Source: an uncultured Opitutaceae bacterium (GTDB taxonomy: Bacteria; Verrucomicrobiota; Verrucomicrobiia; Opitutales; Opitutaceae). Taken from it: a stretch of DNA of 51,448 nt. The stretch covers positions 1-51,448 of the forward strand of contig CAITBM010000079.1 in assembly GCA_903890485.1 (NCBI GenBank), read 5' to 3'. Positions 30,877 to 35,435 of this stretch are shown here, piece after piece. The position numbers were made by a program, and so were the translations under genes. The notes beneath the pieces were generated by a model that ran no database searches, had not been told where the DNA came from, and was given only the letters and a program-made list of their open reading frames with translations. Within the stretch, counting starts at the first letter, position 1. The number at the start of each line of letters is the position of its first letter.

Positions 30877-31920
30877 ATGCGAATCTCCTCAATTGCCGCC
30901 CTGGCGGTCCTCATCGCCTCGGTTCCGGCATCCGTCCTCAGGGCGGAGTACACCCCGGAAGTGAAGCGGGCGCCAACGGAACCGGTCTGGCGCGCCCACC
31001 TTCCCGGGTACGGGGAGCCGGACTACGACGCCGAGGTGGAGAAACTGATCGCGGCCTATGAGAAGGCGACCGGGCACACGATTGCCCCCGGGGCCAAGAA
31101 GAAGGTGGGGCTGAAGATCTACTCGGACTCGGGACCGGGCATGGCGACCCCGACGGCCCTGGTTAAGGCCGTGATCTCGGCCCTCGAGAAGCGGGGCTAC
31201 GCCAACAACAACATCTTCCTAGTCGGGCTGAACCAGCTGCGGCTGCGCATGACCGGCTACCTCCCCTCGCTTGTCACCGGTGAGACCCAGTTCAAGGGCA
31301 ACCCCGTGTTCGTGCTGGAGTCCAACCGCTACTACGATCCGGTTTGGTTTTACGACAGCCCGCTGCCCGAGCGCTTCGACCCCATCTTCGCGGCGCACCA
31401 GACCGAGGGGGTCCCGAACACCTCGACCAAGGAGGAGGACCGCAAGAGCTTCCTGGCGACGCCGCTGTTCCTCGACACGGACTTCTGGATCAACCTGCCG
31501 GTCTACACCGACCACCAGGTGCTCGGCGTCAACGGGGCCCTGGTCAACGCGACCCTCTGGAACGCCTCGAACACGGCCCGGTTCTTCCGGTCGCCGGCAA
31601 CCGCTCCGGCCGCGGTGGCCGAGATGAGCGCGATCCCCGAGCTCCGGCAAACCTGGCTCTTCAGCATCGCGAGCCTGGAGCACTACCAGTACATCGGCGG
31701 GCCTTTCTTTAACTCCCTCTACACGAAGTCGGAGCCGATCCTCTGGCTCGGCACCGACCCGGTCATGATGGACGCGCTCATGAGGGCGAAGATCAACCTG
31801 GCGAGGAAGCACGAGGGGTTCGAGCCGATCTCAGACGAGATCCGCACGCTCGAGTTCGCCGAGACTCTGGGCGTCGGCTCGACCTTGATTAAGGACGCGC
31901 GGATGGTCGATGTGGACTAG
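30877..31920 (+). CDS. Exported DUF362-like protein
   Basis: A 347-aa protein with a clear signal peptide (hydrophobic residues 5-22, cleavage probable after ALRA-like VLRA at about 23). The mature part resembles DUF362-family proteins: SDSGPGMATPTALVKAVISA, INLPVYTDHQVLGVNGALVN and WLGTDPVMMDALMRAKIN recall the conserved segments of that fold. No cysteine cluster of the ferredoxin-containing subgroup is present. The assignment is from recall of sequence pattern and is moderate. The function in the periplasm is unknown. It stands alone between divergent dnaG and nuoA, which follows after 66 nt. Confidence 0.6.
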   Translation: MRISSIAALAVLIASVPASVLRAEYTPEVKRAPTEPVWRAHLPGYGEPDYDAEVEKLIAAYEKATGHTIAPGAKKKVGLKIYSDSGPGMATPTALVKAVISALEKRGYANNNIFLVGLNQLRLRMTGYLPSLVTGETQFKGNPVFVLESNRYYDPVWFYDSPLPERFDPIFAAHQTEGVPNTSTKEEDRKSFLATPLFLDTDFWINLPVYTDHQVLGVNGALVNATLWNASNTARFFRSPATAPAAVAEMSAIPELRQTWLFSIASLEHYQYIGGPFFNSLYTKSEPILWLGTDPVMMDALMRAKINLARKHEGFEPISDEIRTLEFAETLGVGSTLIKDARMVDVD

Positions 31921-31986
31921 GAGCCCTCGGTTTTCACAAACGGCTTGTCTCGCCGCGCGGGCGCTTGCAGGCTCGCCGCTCCTAGA

Positions 31987-32361
31987 ATGACATCGGCCGC
32001 ATACCTTCCCTTCCTGATCCAAGCGGTGCTCGCCGCCGGGATAACGGGCGTCGTGCTCATTTTTAGCCACCTTCTCGGCCAGAGGGGCAAGCACACGAAG
32101 ATCAAGGACTCGGCCTACGAGTGCGGCGTTGCCGGAGAGGGCGTGGTGCACACGCGCTTCTCGGTGAAGTTCTACGTGACGGCGCTGCTTTTCATGCTCT
32201 TCGACCTGGAGATCGTGATCCTCGTGCCGTGGGTGTTCATCTACCGCGAGTTTCTCCACGAGCATATTTCGATCCTGGGTCCGATCCTCTTCTTCATTTT
32301 CGTACTGGTGCTCGGACTGGTCTACGAGGTCAAGAAGGGCGCACTGGAGTGGGAGCGGTAG
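31987..32361 (+). CDS. nuoA: NADH-quinone oxidoreductase subunit A
   Basis: A small membrane subunit of complex I, 124 aa with three predicted membrane helices. It carries the diagnostic YECGV...HTRFSVKFYV and FMLFDLEIVILVPW segments. The ATG at 31987 is preferred over a start at 31945, which would add an unconserved Arg-rich leader. Unlike in most bacteria it is not followed by nuoB; a c-di-AMP synthase candidate begins 16 nt downstream. The rest of the complex must be encoded elsewhere. Identity is secure. Confidence 0.93.
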   Translation: MTSAAYLPFLIQAVLAAGITGVVLIFSHLLGQRGKHTKIKDSAYECGVAGEGVVHTRFSVKFYVTALLFMLFDLEIVILVPWVFIYREFLHEHISILGPILFFIFVLVLGLVYEVKKGALEWER

Positions 32362-32376
32362 AAGCCGGGTCCCGTC

Positions 32377-33720
32377 ATGCGGCTCGACAAGATCATCGCC
32401 CGGAGTCGGATCATCGACCTGCGGAGCCAGACCCTGGAATCCGCCCTGGAGGAGCTTCTCGACGTCTGCATAGCCCGGTTTCCCGACCTTAAGCGGGAGG
32501 CCATCCTTAAGGGCCTCCTCGCCCGGGAGAGCTCGATGACGACCTACCTGGGACTGGGCGTGGCCCTTCCCCACGTGCGGGTCAAGACCTCCCGGCGCTA
32601 CATCCTGGCCATAGGCAGGAGCCGATCGGGCATGAGGCACCAGGGCGCCATGTCGGGCGAGCGCGTGCACCTGATCGTGATGCTGATTGCCGGCGATTCG
32701 GCGCGCGACACTCTGCAGGTGCTGGCCTCCATCGGCCGGCTTGTCCGCGAGCAGGAGCTTGTGGACAGCTTCGTGAACGCCCCGGACCTGGACACGCTCT
32801 ACGAGCGGCTCCTCGGCGGGTTTGGCGGCATGCGGCCGATCCAGGCTCAGCAGAACCGCGTCAACCGGCTCATGTTCCGGCAGGCCGAGCACGTGGCCCG
32901 GGGCGCCGGCTGCAGCGCCACGATGGTCTTCGGGGACACGTTCATCGGCGGCGTCGAGACGGACATGCTCCGGCCGAAGTTGAAGACGATCCTGGTCACC
33001 CGTAACCCGATCGAGGTCGACGAGGCCGAGGGGCGCTTTGCCGACACGATCCAGGTCCGCTCGTTCTCGAGCCAGAGGCTGGCGCAGCTCAGGAGCGCGC
33101 TCCTGGTCGCCCTGACCCGCGGCATCATCGGCTTCAAGGACCGGATCTGCTGCATCGGCGGGATCACGGGCAGCAACCAGTTCGACACGATCGTGGTGGC
33201 CGACATCGAGCGGGAGTTCCAGACGCTACTGGCGGGCCCGGCCACCGACTTGCTTCCTGAGGACGTGAAGCCCGAGGTCCTGGAGCGGGTGCTTGCCGTG
33301 GCCACCGAGCTCGCGGTGGAGGGCAGGGAGGGGCGCCCGGTCGGGTGCCTCTTCGTTGTCGGCGACACCAAGACGGTCGAGGAATACACCAAGCCCCTGG
33401 TGCTGAATCCCTTCTACGGCTACAAGGAGGAGGATCGGAACATCCTTAACCCCTTCATGGACGAGACGATTAAGGAATTCTCCTCGATTGACGGTGCCTT
33501 CGTGATCCGTGGGGATGGGGTGGTCGAGTCCGCGGGCAGCCTGATCCAGGCCAATGGCAACGGGATCACCCTGCCGAGCGGGCTGGGAAGCCGGCATGCG
33601 GCCGCGGCAGGCATCAGTGTATCAGCCAATTGCATCGCGATCGCCGTGTCCTCGAGCACCGCCGTGGTGACCCTTTTCCGCCGGGGCGTCATGCTGCCGC
33701 TCACGGAAAAGCGGCGTTAG
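32377..33720 (+). CDS. Multidomain diadenylate cyclase: EIIA-like + PK_C-like + DAC
   Basis: A 447-aa protein. Residues about 1-145 look like a PTS EIIA type-2 domain, including GVALPHVRV with the histidine that is normally phosphorylated (His66). Residues about 155-285 resemble the pyruvate-kinase C-terminal-like fold that precedes the cyclase domain in archaeal DacZ (CdaZ) enzymes. Residues about 330-440 form a DAC (DisA_N) domain with both catalytic motifs, DGA (Asp372) and a RHAAA form of RHR (Arg406-His407). DAC enzymes join two ATP to c-di-AMP, a second messenger in potassium and osmotic control. No membrane segment is evident. It is 16 nt downstream of nuoA. The DAC call is strong, the EIIA call good and the middle domain tentative. 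Confidence 0.85.
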   Translation: MRLDKIIARSRIIDLRSQTLESALEELLDVCIARFPDLKREAILKGLLARESSMTTYLGLGVALPHVRVKTSRRYILAIGRSRSGMRHQGAMSGERVHLIVMLIAGDSARDTLQVLASIGRLVREQELVDSFVNAPDLDTLYERLLGGFGGMRPIQAQQNRVNRLMFRQAEHVARGAGCSATMVFGDTFIGGVETDMLRPKLKTILVTRNPIEVDEAEGRFADTIQVRSFSSQRLAQLRSALLVALTRGIIGFKDRICCIGGITGSNQFDTIVVADIEREFQTLLAGPATDLLPEDVKPEVLERVLAVATELAVEGREGRPVGCLFVVGDTKTVEEYTKPLVLNPFYGYKEEDRNILNPFMDETIKEFSSIDGAFVIRGDGVVESAGSLIQANGNGITLPSGLGSRHAAAAGISVSANCIAIAVSSSTAVVTLFRRGVMLPLTEKRR

Positions 33721-33797
33721 GGACCCGCCGGCTCGAACTTTGGGGTTGCTAGGGGCCGCGGCGCGGTTTCTTCTGACCGTTCAACCGATTTAAACCC

Positions 33798-33962
33798 ATG
33801 CAAGAAGTCGTAACACTGGAGTGCACAGAGGCCCGCAAAGAGGGCAAACCCGTTTCCCGCTACCTCACGAGGCGCAACAAGAAGACCGTCACCGAGCGCA
33901 TCGAGAAGAAGAAGTACAATCCCCACCTGAAGCGCCACACGCTTCACAAGGAGATCAAGTAA
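33798..33962 (+). CDS. rpmG: 50S ribosomal protein L33
   Basis: A 54-aa basic protein read directly from the sequence. The frame starts [17 protein letters not shown] and contains [18 protein letters not shown] and a KEIK end, characteristic of L33. It is the variant without the four-cysteine zinc ligands; only one Cys (Cys9) is present. It is a structural protein of the large ribosomal subunit. No other ribosomal gene is adjacent. Confidence 0.92.
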
Positions 33963-33968
33963 GCGGAC

Positions 33969-33989
33969 TTCCGGGAATATCCGGAATTT
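33969..33989 (+). terminator. Possible terminator of rpmG
   Basis: TTCCGG (33969-33974) pairs with CCGGAA (33981-33986) across a 6-nt loop just after the stop and is followed by TTTA. The stem is short, so termination is uncertain. Confidence 0.35.
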
Positions 33990-34269
33990 AGGACTGTTTC
34001 CCGCTCGTGCTCGAAAAGGGCGAGGCGGAGGAACCGGAAGCGACGGGGGTCAAGGTCTGGCGGCGCGCTGCGCGCCAGCCCTCGCGATGTTTGCGTATCC
34101 AGTCCAGGAGGGCGCGCTCAAAGCCGATGTCGTATCCCAAGCGTTCGGACTCTAGCCATTTGTGCTTCAGGATCTCCTCCCGTTCCGCGAGGAATTCCTG
34201 ATAGAGGCTCGACTGCTTTACGAATTCGCGCGACGACGCTGTCGCTGGCTCTTTAGAGGAAGAAGTCAT
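33988..34269 (-). CDS. Small hypothetical protein downstream of mrp
   Basis: A 93-aa, mainly helical, charged protein. The core (about residues 15-70) reads SSLYQEFLAEREEILKHK then WLESERLGYDIGFERALLDW and HREGWRAARR. I recall similar patterns in small uncharacterised proteins of several phyla but cannot name a family. A Ser-rich tail ends it; there is no signal peptide or membrane segment. It lies 74 nt downstream of the mrp-type gene on the same strand and is convergent with rpmG. Function unknown. Confidence 0.65.
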   Translation of the reverse strand: MTSSSKEPATASSREFVKQSSLYQEFLAEREEILKHKWLESERLGYDIGFERALLDWIRKHREGWRAARRQTLTPVASGSSASPFSSTSGKQS

Positions 34270-34343
34270 TCAGGGCGTCCGGTAAATTGAAGGATGTGAG
34301 CAGCGGCGCCTAAGGTGTCAATGCCAGCAATGTCGCCTGATCG

Positions 34344-35435
34344 TTACATTGCTCTTGACGGGGCTTTCTGGGCCGTCGCGAGGAGAGCCTCGGCGATGCC
34401 TCGGAAGACCCCTGCGGCGGCCCCTTCGGGCTCGGTGACGACGATCGGCATGCCCTTGTCCCCGCCTTCGCGGATGGCCGGGATCAGGGGGACTTGGCCC
34501 ATGAGCACCGTGCCCAAGCGCTCGGCGGTGGCGATGCCACCGCCCGATCCGAAGATCAGGTGCTTCTGCCCCGTGGGATCGATGAAGTAGCTCATGTTCT
34601 CGGCAACCCCGACTATCGGCACATTTACCTTCTGGAACATGAGGCCGCCCTTTAGGGCGACCTGAGTGGCGGCGGGCTGGGGAGTTGTGACGATCAGGGC
34701 CCCGTCCAGGGGCAGCGTCTGCACGAGGGAAAGTTGAGCATCGCCGGTGCCCGGGGGCAGGTCGACCAAGAGGACATCCAGCTCGCCCCACTTCACGTTC
34801 TGAACAAACTGCTGGACGGTCTTCATGACCATCGGGCCCCGCCAGACGACCGGGGTGTTGTCGTCCACCAGGAAGCCCATGCTCATGACCTTGACCCCGT
34901 GGCGCTCCATCGGGACCAGGCACGAGTCCTGCCCCTCGCCCTCGACCTCGGGCCGGCCCTTCAGGCCGATCATCAGCGGCACGCTCGGGCCGTAGATGTC
35001 GATGTCCATGAGCCCGACCCGTCCCGGGCGCCCCTGGGCGGAGAGCACCTGCGCCAGGGCGCACGCCAGGTTGACGGCAAAGGTGCTCTTCCCGACCCCG
35101 CCCTTGCCGGAGGCGATCGCTATCGCGTGGCGTATCCCGCTCGAGGCCCCGGGCTTGGCCGAGGGCAGTCCCGTCGGCCCAGCCGGCGCTTTGGCGGCCT
35201 GGACCGCCACCTCGACGGTGGCCTTGGAGACCCCCGCCAGGGAAAGCAAGCTCCGCTCGACCTCGTCCCGCAGCTGCTTGGGGACCTTCGGGTCGCTGGT
35301 CGTAATCGCCAGGGCGACGTGGGCCACGCCGTCGTGGAACGCGGCGGACTTCACGAGCCCGAAGGACACAATGTCCCGGCTAAAGCCTGGATACTTAACG
35401 TTCCTGAGTTGCGCCAATAGGTCTTCGGAGGTCAC
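34344..35435 (-). CDS. Mrp/NBP35-family ATPase (Fe-S cluster carrier type)
   Basis: A 363-aa P-loop protein. Its N-terminal DUF59/MIP18 domain (about residues 1-85, starting SEDLLAQLRNVKYPGFSRDIV) precedes the ATPase domain, with the deviant Walker A GKGGVGKST, DIDIYGPSVP, VDLPPGTGD and ENMSYF motifs. The family normally has a CxxC after ENMSYF that bridges an Fe-S cluster between subunits; here the stretch reads FIDPTGQKHLIFG, without cysteines. Cluster transfer by the standard mechanism is therefore doubtful. The GTG at 35435 gives the usual DUF59 start. An upstream TTG at 35498 would abut the start of the divergent tolB-like gene and is rejected. Confidence 0.88.
   Translation of the reverse strand: MTSEDLLAQLRNVKYPGFSRDIVSFGLVKSAAFHDGVAHVALAITTSDPKVPKQLRDEVERSLLSLAGVSKATVEVAVQAAKAPAGPTGLPSAKPGASSGIRHAIAIASGKGGVGKSTFAVNLACALAQVLSAQGRPGRVGLMDIDIYGPSVPLMIGLKGRPEVEGEGQDSCLVPMERHGVKVMSMGFLVDDNTPVVWRGPMVMKTVQQFVQNVKWGELDVLLVDLPPGTGDAQLSLVQTLPLDGALIVTTPQPAATQVALKGGLMFQKVNVPIVGVAENMSYFIDPTGQKHLIFGSGGGIATAERLGTVLMGQVPLIPAIREGGDKGMPIVVTEPEGAAAGVFRGIAEALLATAQKAPSRAM

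Follow-up and report, generated by a model that had tools for sequence, protein, structure and literature searches.

A predicted c-di-AMP synthase with EIIA and pyruvate-kinase-C-like domains is the usual diadenylate cyclase of Opitutales

The signals that set the activity of c-di-AMP synthases are largely open. Among the catalogued classes of diadenylate cyclase (DAC), DacD is said to have been given a PTS_EIIA_2 domain by Corrigan and Grundling in 2013. Braun et al. (2019, PMC6741144), who cite the 2013 work of Corrigan and Grundling, list DacD members of Lacunisphaera, Puniceicoccaceae, Coraliomargarita, Verrucomicrobia, and Opitutae, and describe archaeal DacZ as a PK_C-like domain followed by DAC. 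CdaA, CdaS, CdaM, and DisA combine the DAC fold and its DGA and RH motifs with extra domains of their own. As for potassium, K+ transporters are described as controlled by c-di-AMP in PMC6488665, which also mentions c-di-AMP riboswitches predicted before K+ transporter genes for phyla including Verrucomicrobia, and as controlled by PtsN in PMC13104625.

The window analysed here (the whole stretch of 51,448 nucleotides from an Opitutaceae contig) encodes a protein with EIIA and PK_C-like domains in the place of the extra domains of CdaA, CdaS, CdaM, and DisA. Its features are as follows.

32377-33720, forward strand: coding sequence of the EIIA - DacZ_P (PK_C-like) - DAC fusion, 447 aa, ATG start
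32413-32811, forward strand: PTS_EIIA_2 domain, residues 13-145 (Pfam E-value 5e-17, 62.7 bits, cut-off 27)
32572-32574, forward strand: codon of His66, the predicted phospho-acceptor, within GVALPHVR
32854-33225, forward strand: DacZ_P domain (PF21755), pyruvate-kinase-C-like, residues 160-283 (Pfam E-value 3.1e-25, 88.7 bits, cut-off 27.4)
33313-33690, forward strand: DAC (diadenylate cyclase) domain (PF02457), residues 313-438 (Pfam E-value 1.8e-19, 69.9 bits, cut-off 27)
33490-33498, forward strand: DGA motif, residues 372-374 (D372-G373-A374)
33592-33597, forward strand: RH of the GxRHxxA motif, residues 406-407 (R406-H407)
33646-33660, forward strand: VSSST at the site of CdaA's VSEET, residues 424-428

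The original prediction read this 447-aa frame as three joined regions, and the fusion is confirmed: PTS_EIIA_2, DacZ_P, and DAC each score above their curated Pfam cut-offs, and the EIIA-Ntr, pyruvate-kinase-C-like, and DisA/CdaA folds of an AlphaFold model agree. The interpretation that accompanied it is supported in part. The model, built from 33 sequences, has a mean pLDDT of 82.3 and a pTM of 0.54, the latter leaving the packing of the domains unsure. According to structure alignment, residues 1-148 match EIIA-Ntr (1a6j_A) with Z 21.2, residues 158-283 match the pyruvate kinase C domain 5wrp_A (one row; Z 13.7, rmsd 2.8, 121 residues), and residues from roughly 284 to 446 match DisA/CdaA-type chains (Z 13.8-15.6). 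The second of these alignments, together with the PF21755 match, bears out the earlier description of the middle part as PK_C-like, and this domain is possibly a ligand sensor. By sequence, the solved structures nearest to the front part are PtsN proteins, and those nearest to the back part are CdaA-type cyclases; among the matches listed, no solved chain corresponds to the middle domain alone by sequence, apart from a weak match over residues 251-289 (E 0.59). An assembly artefact or chance fusion is ruled out, because each of the 60 loci in the initial set (58 genomes) encodes a relative, with a length of 436-463 aa at 58 of them. The two length outliers are L016, for which a longer start was chosen, and L010, with a frame break in the assembly.

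The DAC domain looks intact, with DGA at 372 and RH at 406 where they had been placed from the sequence. Across 97 aligned proteins covering both sites (the window's own included; one further protein runs off its contig), D372-G373 and R406-H407 are invariant, and the third residue of DGA is Ala in 92 of the 97. Compared with the active-site residues of CdaA, taken from PMC7288161, VSEET is replaced by VSSST in the window protein, and 58 of 59 proteins retain S427. Two Haladaptatus DacZ proteins from plasmid records carry RHHAA and SES, so that Ser for the last Glu of SEE is common to the window protein and these two archaeal DacZ. The CdaA_N membrane domain is absent among Pfam matches up to E 1, and the protein is predicted to be a soluble diadenylate cyclase that synthesizes c-di-AMP.

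According to NCBIfam, the best model is DacZ (residues 237-439, 112.9 bits), and the models of CdaA, DisA, CdaM, and CdaS reach 21.7-25.1 bits. Since the cut-off of the haloarchaeal DacZ equivalog is 430, these scores place the protein in the DacZ/CdaZ branch, related to yet distinct from haloarchaeal-type DacZ. It shares with archaeal DacZ/CdaZ (DacY) the PK_C-like domain before DAC, whereas the two archaeal DacZ proteins read are 268 aa long without EIIA. In the same way, the front domain resembles EIIA-Ntr (PtsN) in fold, in the phospho-His within the same motif, and in Arg50, but it is fused to a cyclase, has Tyr or Thr in place of the second His, and scores 32 bits with the PtsN equivalog model, far under the cut-off of 138.7. 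The PTS_EIIA_2 domain N-terminal to DAC fits the definition given for DacD. By taxa, the members listed by Braun et al. fit the group in which the fusion is the usual DAC; they are likewise bacterial, and no difference is known. The protein is thus almost certainly a member of DacD, a catalogued and uncharacterised class. The suggestion of a possible new class does not hold, given the place in the DacZ/CdaZ branch, the existing DacD entry, and DacZ_P matches in 88 of the 95 genomes of the order. The protein is ordinary for its order and catalogued, and the listed results of literature searches include no experimental work on DacD proteins or on the EIIA-DacZ_P-DAC architecture.

In the relatives set of 95 genomes of the order (own genome included), 86 of these 88 matches are above the cut-off; in G066 the protein is present although DacZ_P gives no match at this limit, which brings the total to 89 of 95 genomes. 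Within the window's own family, DacZ_P is found in 60 of 61 genomes. The phylum sample of 288 genomes yields 46 matches, namely 41 of the 43 order members among the genomes listed, which are taken to show all order members (222 non-matching genomes are not itemised), and 5 from outside the order. A scan of the named genome collection gives 469 stretches that encode relatives, and the nearest 80 of them have Opitutae- or Verrucomicrobia-type names. No other DAC was found in the fusion's own genome, which is 97% complete. DAC is found in 88 of the 95 genomes, with a single DAC above the cut-off in 86 of the 88; a second DAC above the cut-off occurs in G059 (a CdaA with CdaA_N, L186) and in G091, and one below it in G035. 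These counts point to the fusion as the usual c-di-AMP synthase of Opitutales, and no one-off.

A tree of 40 rows, covering the sequences from residue 158 onward, places the order's proteins in one group (100/99), except for a second, EIIA-less copy in G246 that groups with G195; the position of several long branches is uncertain. Recent horizontal acquisition is not supported, the order's proteins grouping together but for that copy. Plasmid-borne spread finds no support in a protein search: among 72,556 plasmid records, 28 have partial matches (separate EIIA or DacZ) and none covers 80% of the query. EIIA-bearing proteins of family f46 lie outside the order's group with EIIA-less ones in between, so EIIA was either gained twice or lost several times. 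The second G246 protein (L183 4920-5822), which that genome carries alongside the fusion, has DacZ_P and DAC in 300 aa and sits on a very long branch. The G195 protein (L180 4482-7004) has 840 aa; its first 540 or so residues have no Pfam match, and DacZ_P and DAC form its C-terminal end.

His66, which the original prediction took to be retained, is His in 83 of the 87 readable genomes, and it and its P-H context are strongly kept. Glu51, His66, Arg68, and Arg50 are within the 25 most conserved EIIA columns. At the position of the second His of PtsN, the alignment shows Tyr in 78, Thr in 8 (including Thr112 of the window protein), and His in 1 of 87. EI is found in 85, HPr in 89, and PF02378 EIIC permeases in 8 of the 95 genomes; of the 89 genomes that carry the protein, EI and HPr occur together in 79, and 71 of these 79 are without PF02378. 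The own genome has EI and HPr (contigs C132 and C92), and no PF02378 EIIC was found in it. Such sets, EI and HPr mostly without PF02378 (the sole EIIC family covered), look like a regulatory PTS.

As for losses, four genomes are without both EI and HPr: G084 has lost the whole EIIA (L172 2935-3864), G093 has lost the His (L174 2968-4314), and G066 and G088 keep His66. Both G084 and G093 are small genomes of about 0.9-1.0 Mb. G063 and G089 have Tyr at position 66, whereas G225 and G249, both outside the 95 genomes, have Ser there; all four have EI and HPr, and the EIIA match of G225 is down to 23.9 bits, under the cut-off. In G073, G085, and G094, EI is absent and His66 is kept. Loss of EIIA or its His is seen in 2 of 4 genomes lacking both EI and HPr vs 2 of 82 others (Fisher p 0.0095, kinship ignored), and in 2 of 7 vs 2 of 79 by absence of EI alone (p 0.032, kinship ignored). 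These tests leave out G043 (frame break, with the His in the other frame) and G044 and G071 (contig ends inside the gene), as well as G225 and G249, which would weaken the association if counted as losses with EI and HPr. As proof of coupling between His66 and EI/HPr, the association is suggestive only.

Several other EIIA proteins appear in the surveyed genomes. The cluster of G235, a distant relative outside the window's class (L178 2485-9927), has EIIA in three genes: a zinc-ribbon protein with EIIA upstream, the fusion, and an amino-acid permease that carries EIIA at its C-terminus. Beside the fusion, on the other strand and before the permease is reached, lies a full EI gene (662 aa, with three EI Pfam domains), so placed between the two. 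In G320 (L179), two EIIA-like neighbours of similar size are detected with the family HMM only. The only other PTS_EIIA_2 protein of the own genome (C107, L022 1141-1947) has 268 aa and the motif GVAVPH, and its gene adjoins that of a P-type cation ATPase, named from sequence only.

The best support for c-di-AMP output, which is indirect, comes from riboswitches in relatives. The c-di-AMP riboswitch RF00379 is found in 13 of the 95 genomes (E 1.3e-9 to 5.7e-15), and three of the 13 are confirmed on a rescan with the whole Rfam library; in the 14 control genomes it matches 2, B. subtilis and C. glutamicum only. None is found in the window or in its own genome. The genome search used stricter filters with at most 30 candidates scored per genome, so some riboswitches may be missed. 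Taking the first long frame behind the riboswitch, with homology as a guide, the first gene is KimA-like in 8, Kup in 1, and Band_7/SPFH in 4 of the 13. Pfam applied to 7 of the 13 first genes gives three AA_permease_2 (KimA-like), one K_trans, and three Band_7; the identity of KimA comes from one member matching PDB 6s3k (E 5.4e-62) and from mutual similarity for the rest. In 12 of the 13 genomes no DAC was found besides the fusion, and in the 13th (G076, 50% complete) none at all. Riboswitches lie directly before Band_7/SPFH genes in L217, L222, L225, and L228 (Pfam-checked in three); two of these four genes are then followed by a KimA-like frame, one of them cut by the contig end. Band_7/SPFH is possibly a little-noted kind of riboswitch-controlled gene.

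Two further genes in the window are of interest.

31945-32361, forward strand: nuoA, NADH-quinone oxidoreductase chain 3 (PF00507, 1.1e-27), 15 nt upstream of the cyclase start codon
24280-26769, forward strand: CPA2-type antiporter with two TrkA_C (RCK_C) domains, start codon uncertain (PF00999 7.6e-60, PF02080 1.3e-24)

In 110 of 124 loci nuoA precedes the cyclase gene on the same strand, with a median gap of 49 nt (some of these loci are one genome under two names), and nuoA and the cyclase are likely on one transcript. A promoter scan of 31700-34400 found nothing. The antiporter, for which CPA2/Kef models stay below their cut-offs, is about 5.6 kb upstream of the cyclase and is a candidate c-di-AMP target.

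Control of the cyclase by phosphorylation through EIIA is likely on comparative evidence. The model as a whole, which we consider fairly probable, is that of a DacD cyclase whose output is set by phosphate on His66 delivered via EI and HPr, and whose product limits K+ uptake. Phosphate from PEP would pass through EI and HPr to His66 of the EIIA-Ntr-like domain, and control would presumably run from the phosphorylation state of EIIA to cyclase output, possibly set jointly by a metabolite on the PK_C-like middle domain. Paired C-terminal DAC domains would then join two ATP into c-di-AMP, which would limit K+ uptake, in relatives via riboswitches before kimA and kup. More tentatively, we suggest an order-wide merger in one protein, in which PEP-derived phosphate on EIIA and a metabolite on the PK_C-like domain would together control the c-di-AMP synthase that is usual, and mostly alone, in these genomes, and its product would shut down K+ importers such as KimA and Kup. 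The proposed tie to nitrogen, to which the closeness in fold to EIIA-Ntr may point, is the least supported step.

EIIA might instead be a phosphorylation-independent docking or dimerisation module, with the cyclase controlled by the PK_C-like domain and partner proteins. The loss of His66 in two families that have EI and HPr and keep EIIA-like sequence (G063/G089 and G225/G249), the replacement of the second His by Tyr or Thr, and the retention of His66 in G066 and G088 despite their lack of EI and HPr would all suit such a module. However, the conservation of Glu51, His66, Arg68, and Arg50, the disappearance of EIIA or its His from two of the four genomes without EI and HPr, and the EI gene beside the fusion in G235 speak against it, and we regard docking as unlikely. 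Signalling could also flow in reverse, the nucleotide state of DAC altering the binding of EIIA to K+ or amino-acid transporters, so that EIIA is the output. Domains fused ahead of a cyclase are usually inputs, and riboswitches provide a separate c-di-AMP output in 13 of 95 genomes; these points make reverse flow quite improbable, even though PtsN acts by binding TrkA, YcgO, and KdpD (according to PMC13104625) and the G235 cluster contains an amino-acid permease with a fused EIIA.

That DAC is inactive and the protein merely a PTS or nucleotide sensor appears the least credible reading. The window motifs do deviate from those of CdaA given in PMC7288161 (SEE to SSS, RHR to RHA), but the two archaeal DacZ deviate too, and Haloferax DacZ is reported to be active with Mn2+ (PMC6741144). 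Moreover, the invariance of D372 and R406-H407 in 97 proteins and the lack of another DAC in 12 of 13 riboswitch genomes argue for an active enzyme.

Under the preferred reading, a DacD cyclase set through His66, the fusion places a well-understood phosphorylation switch on the synthase itself, and the question of control therefore becomes a simple in vitro test. Its value is that phosphorelay control of a c-di-AMP synthase is made directly testable. If the reading is true, PtsN and c-di-AMP, two K+ controllers known elsewhere as separate, would be joined in one chain, which would also hint at a role of EI and HPr in bacteria mostly without PF02378 permeases. The fusion may link energy or nutrient state with potassium balance.
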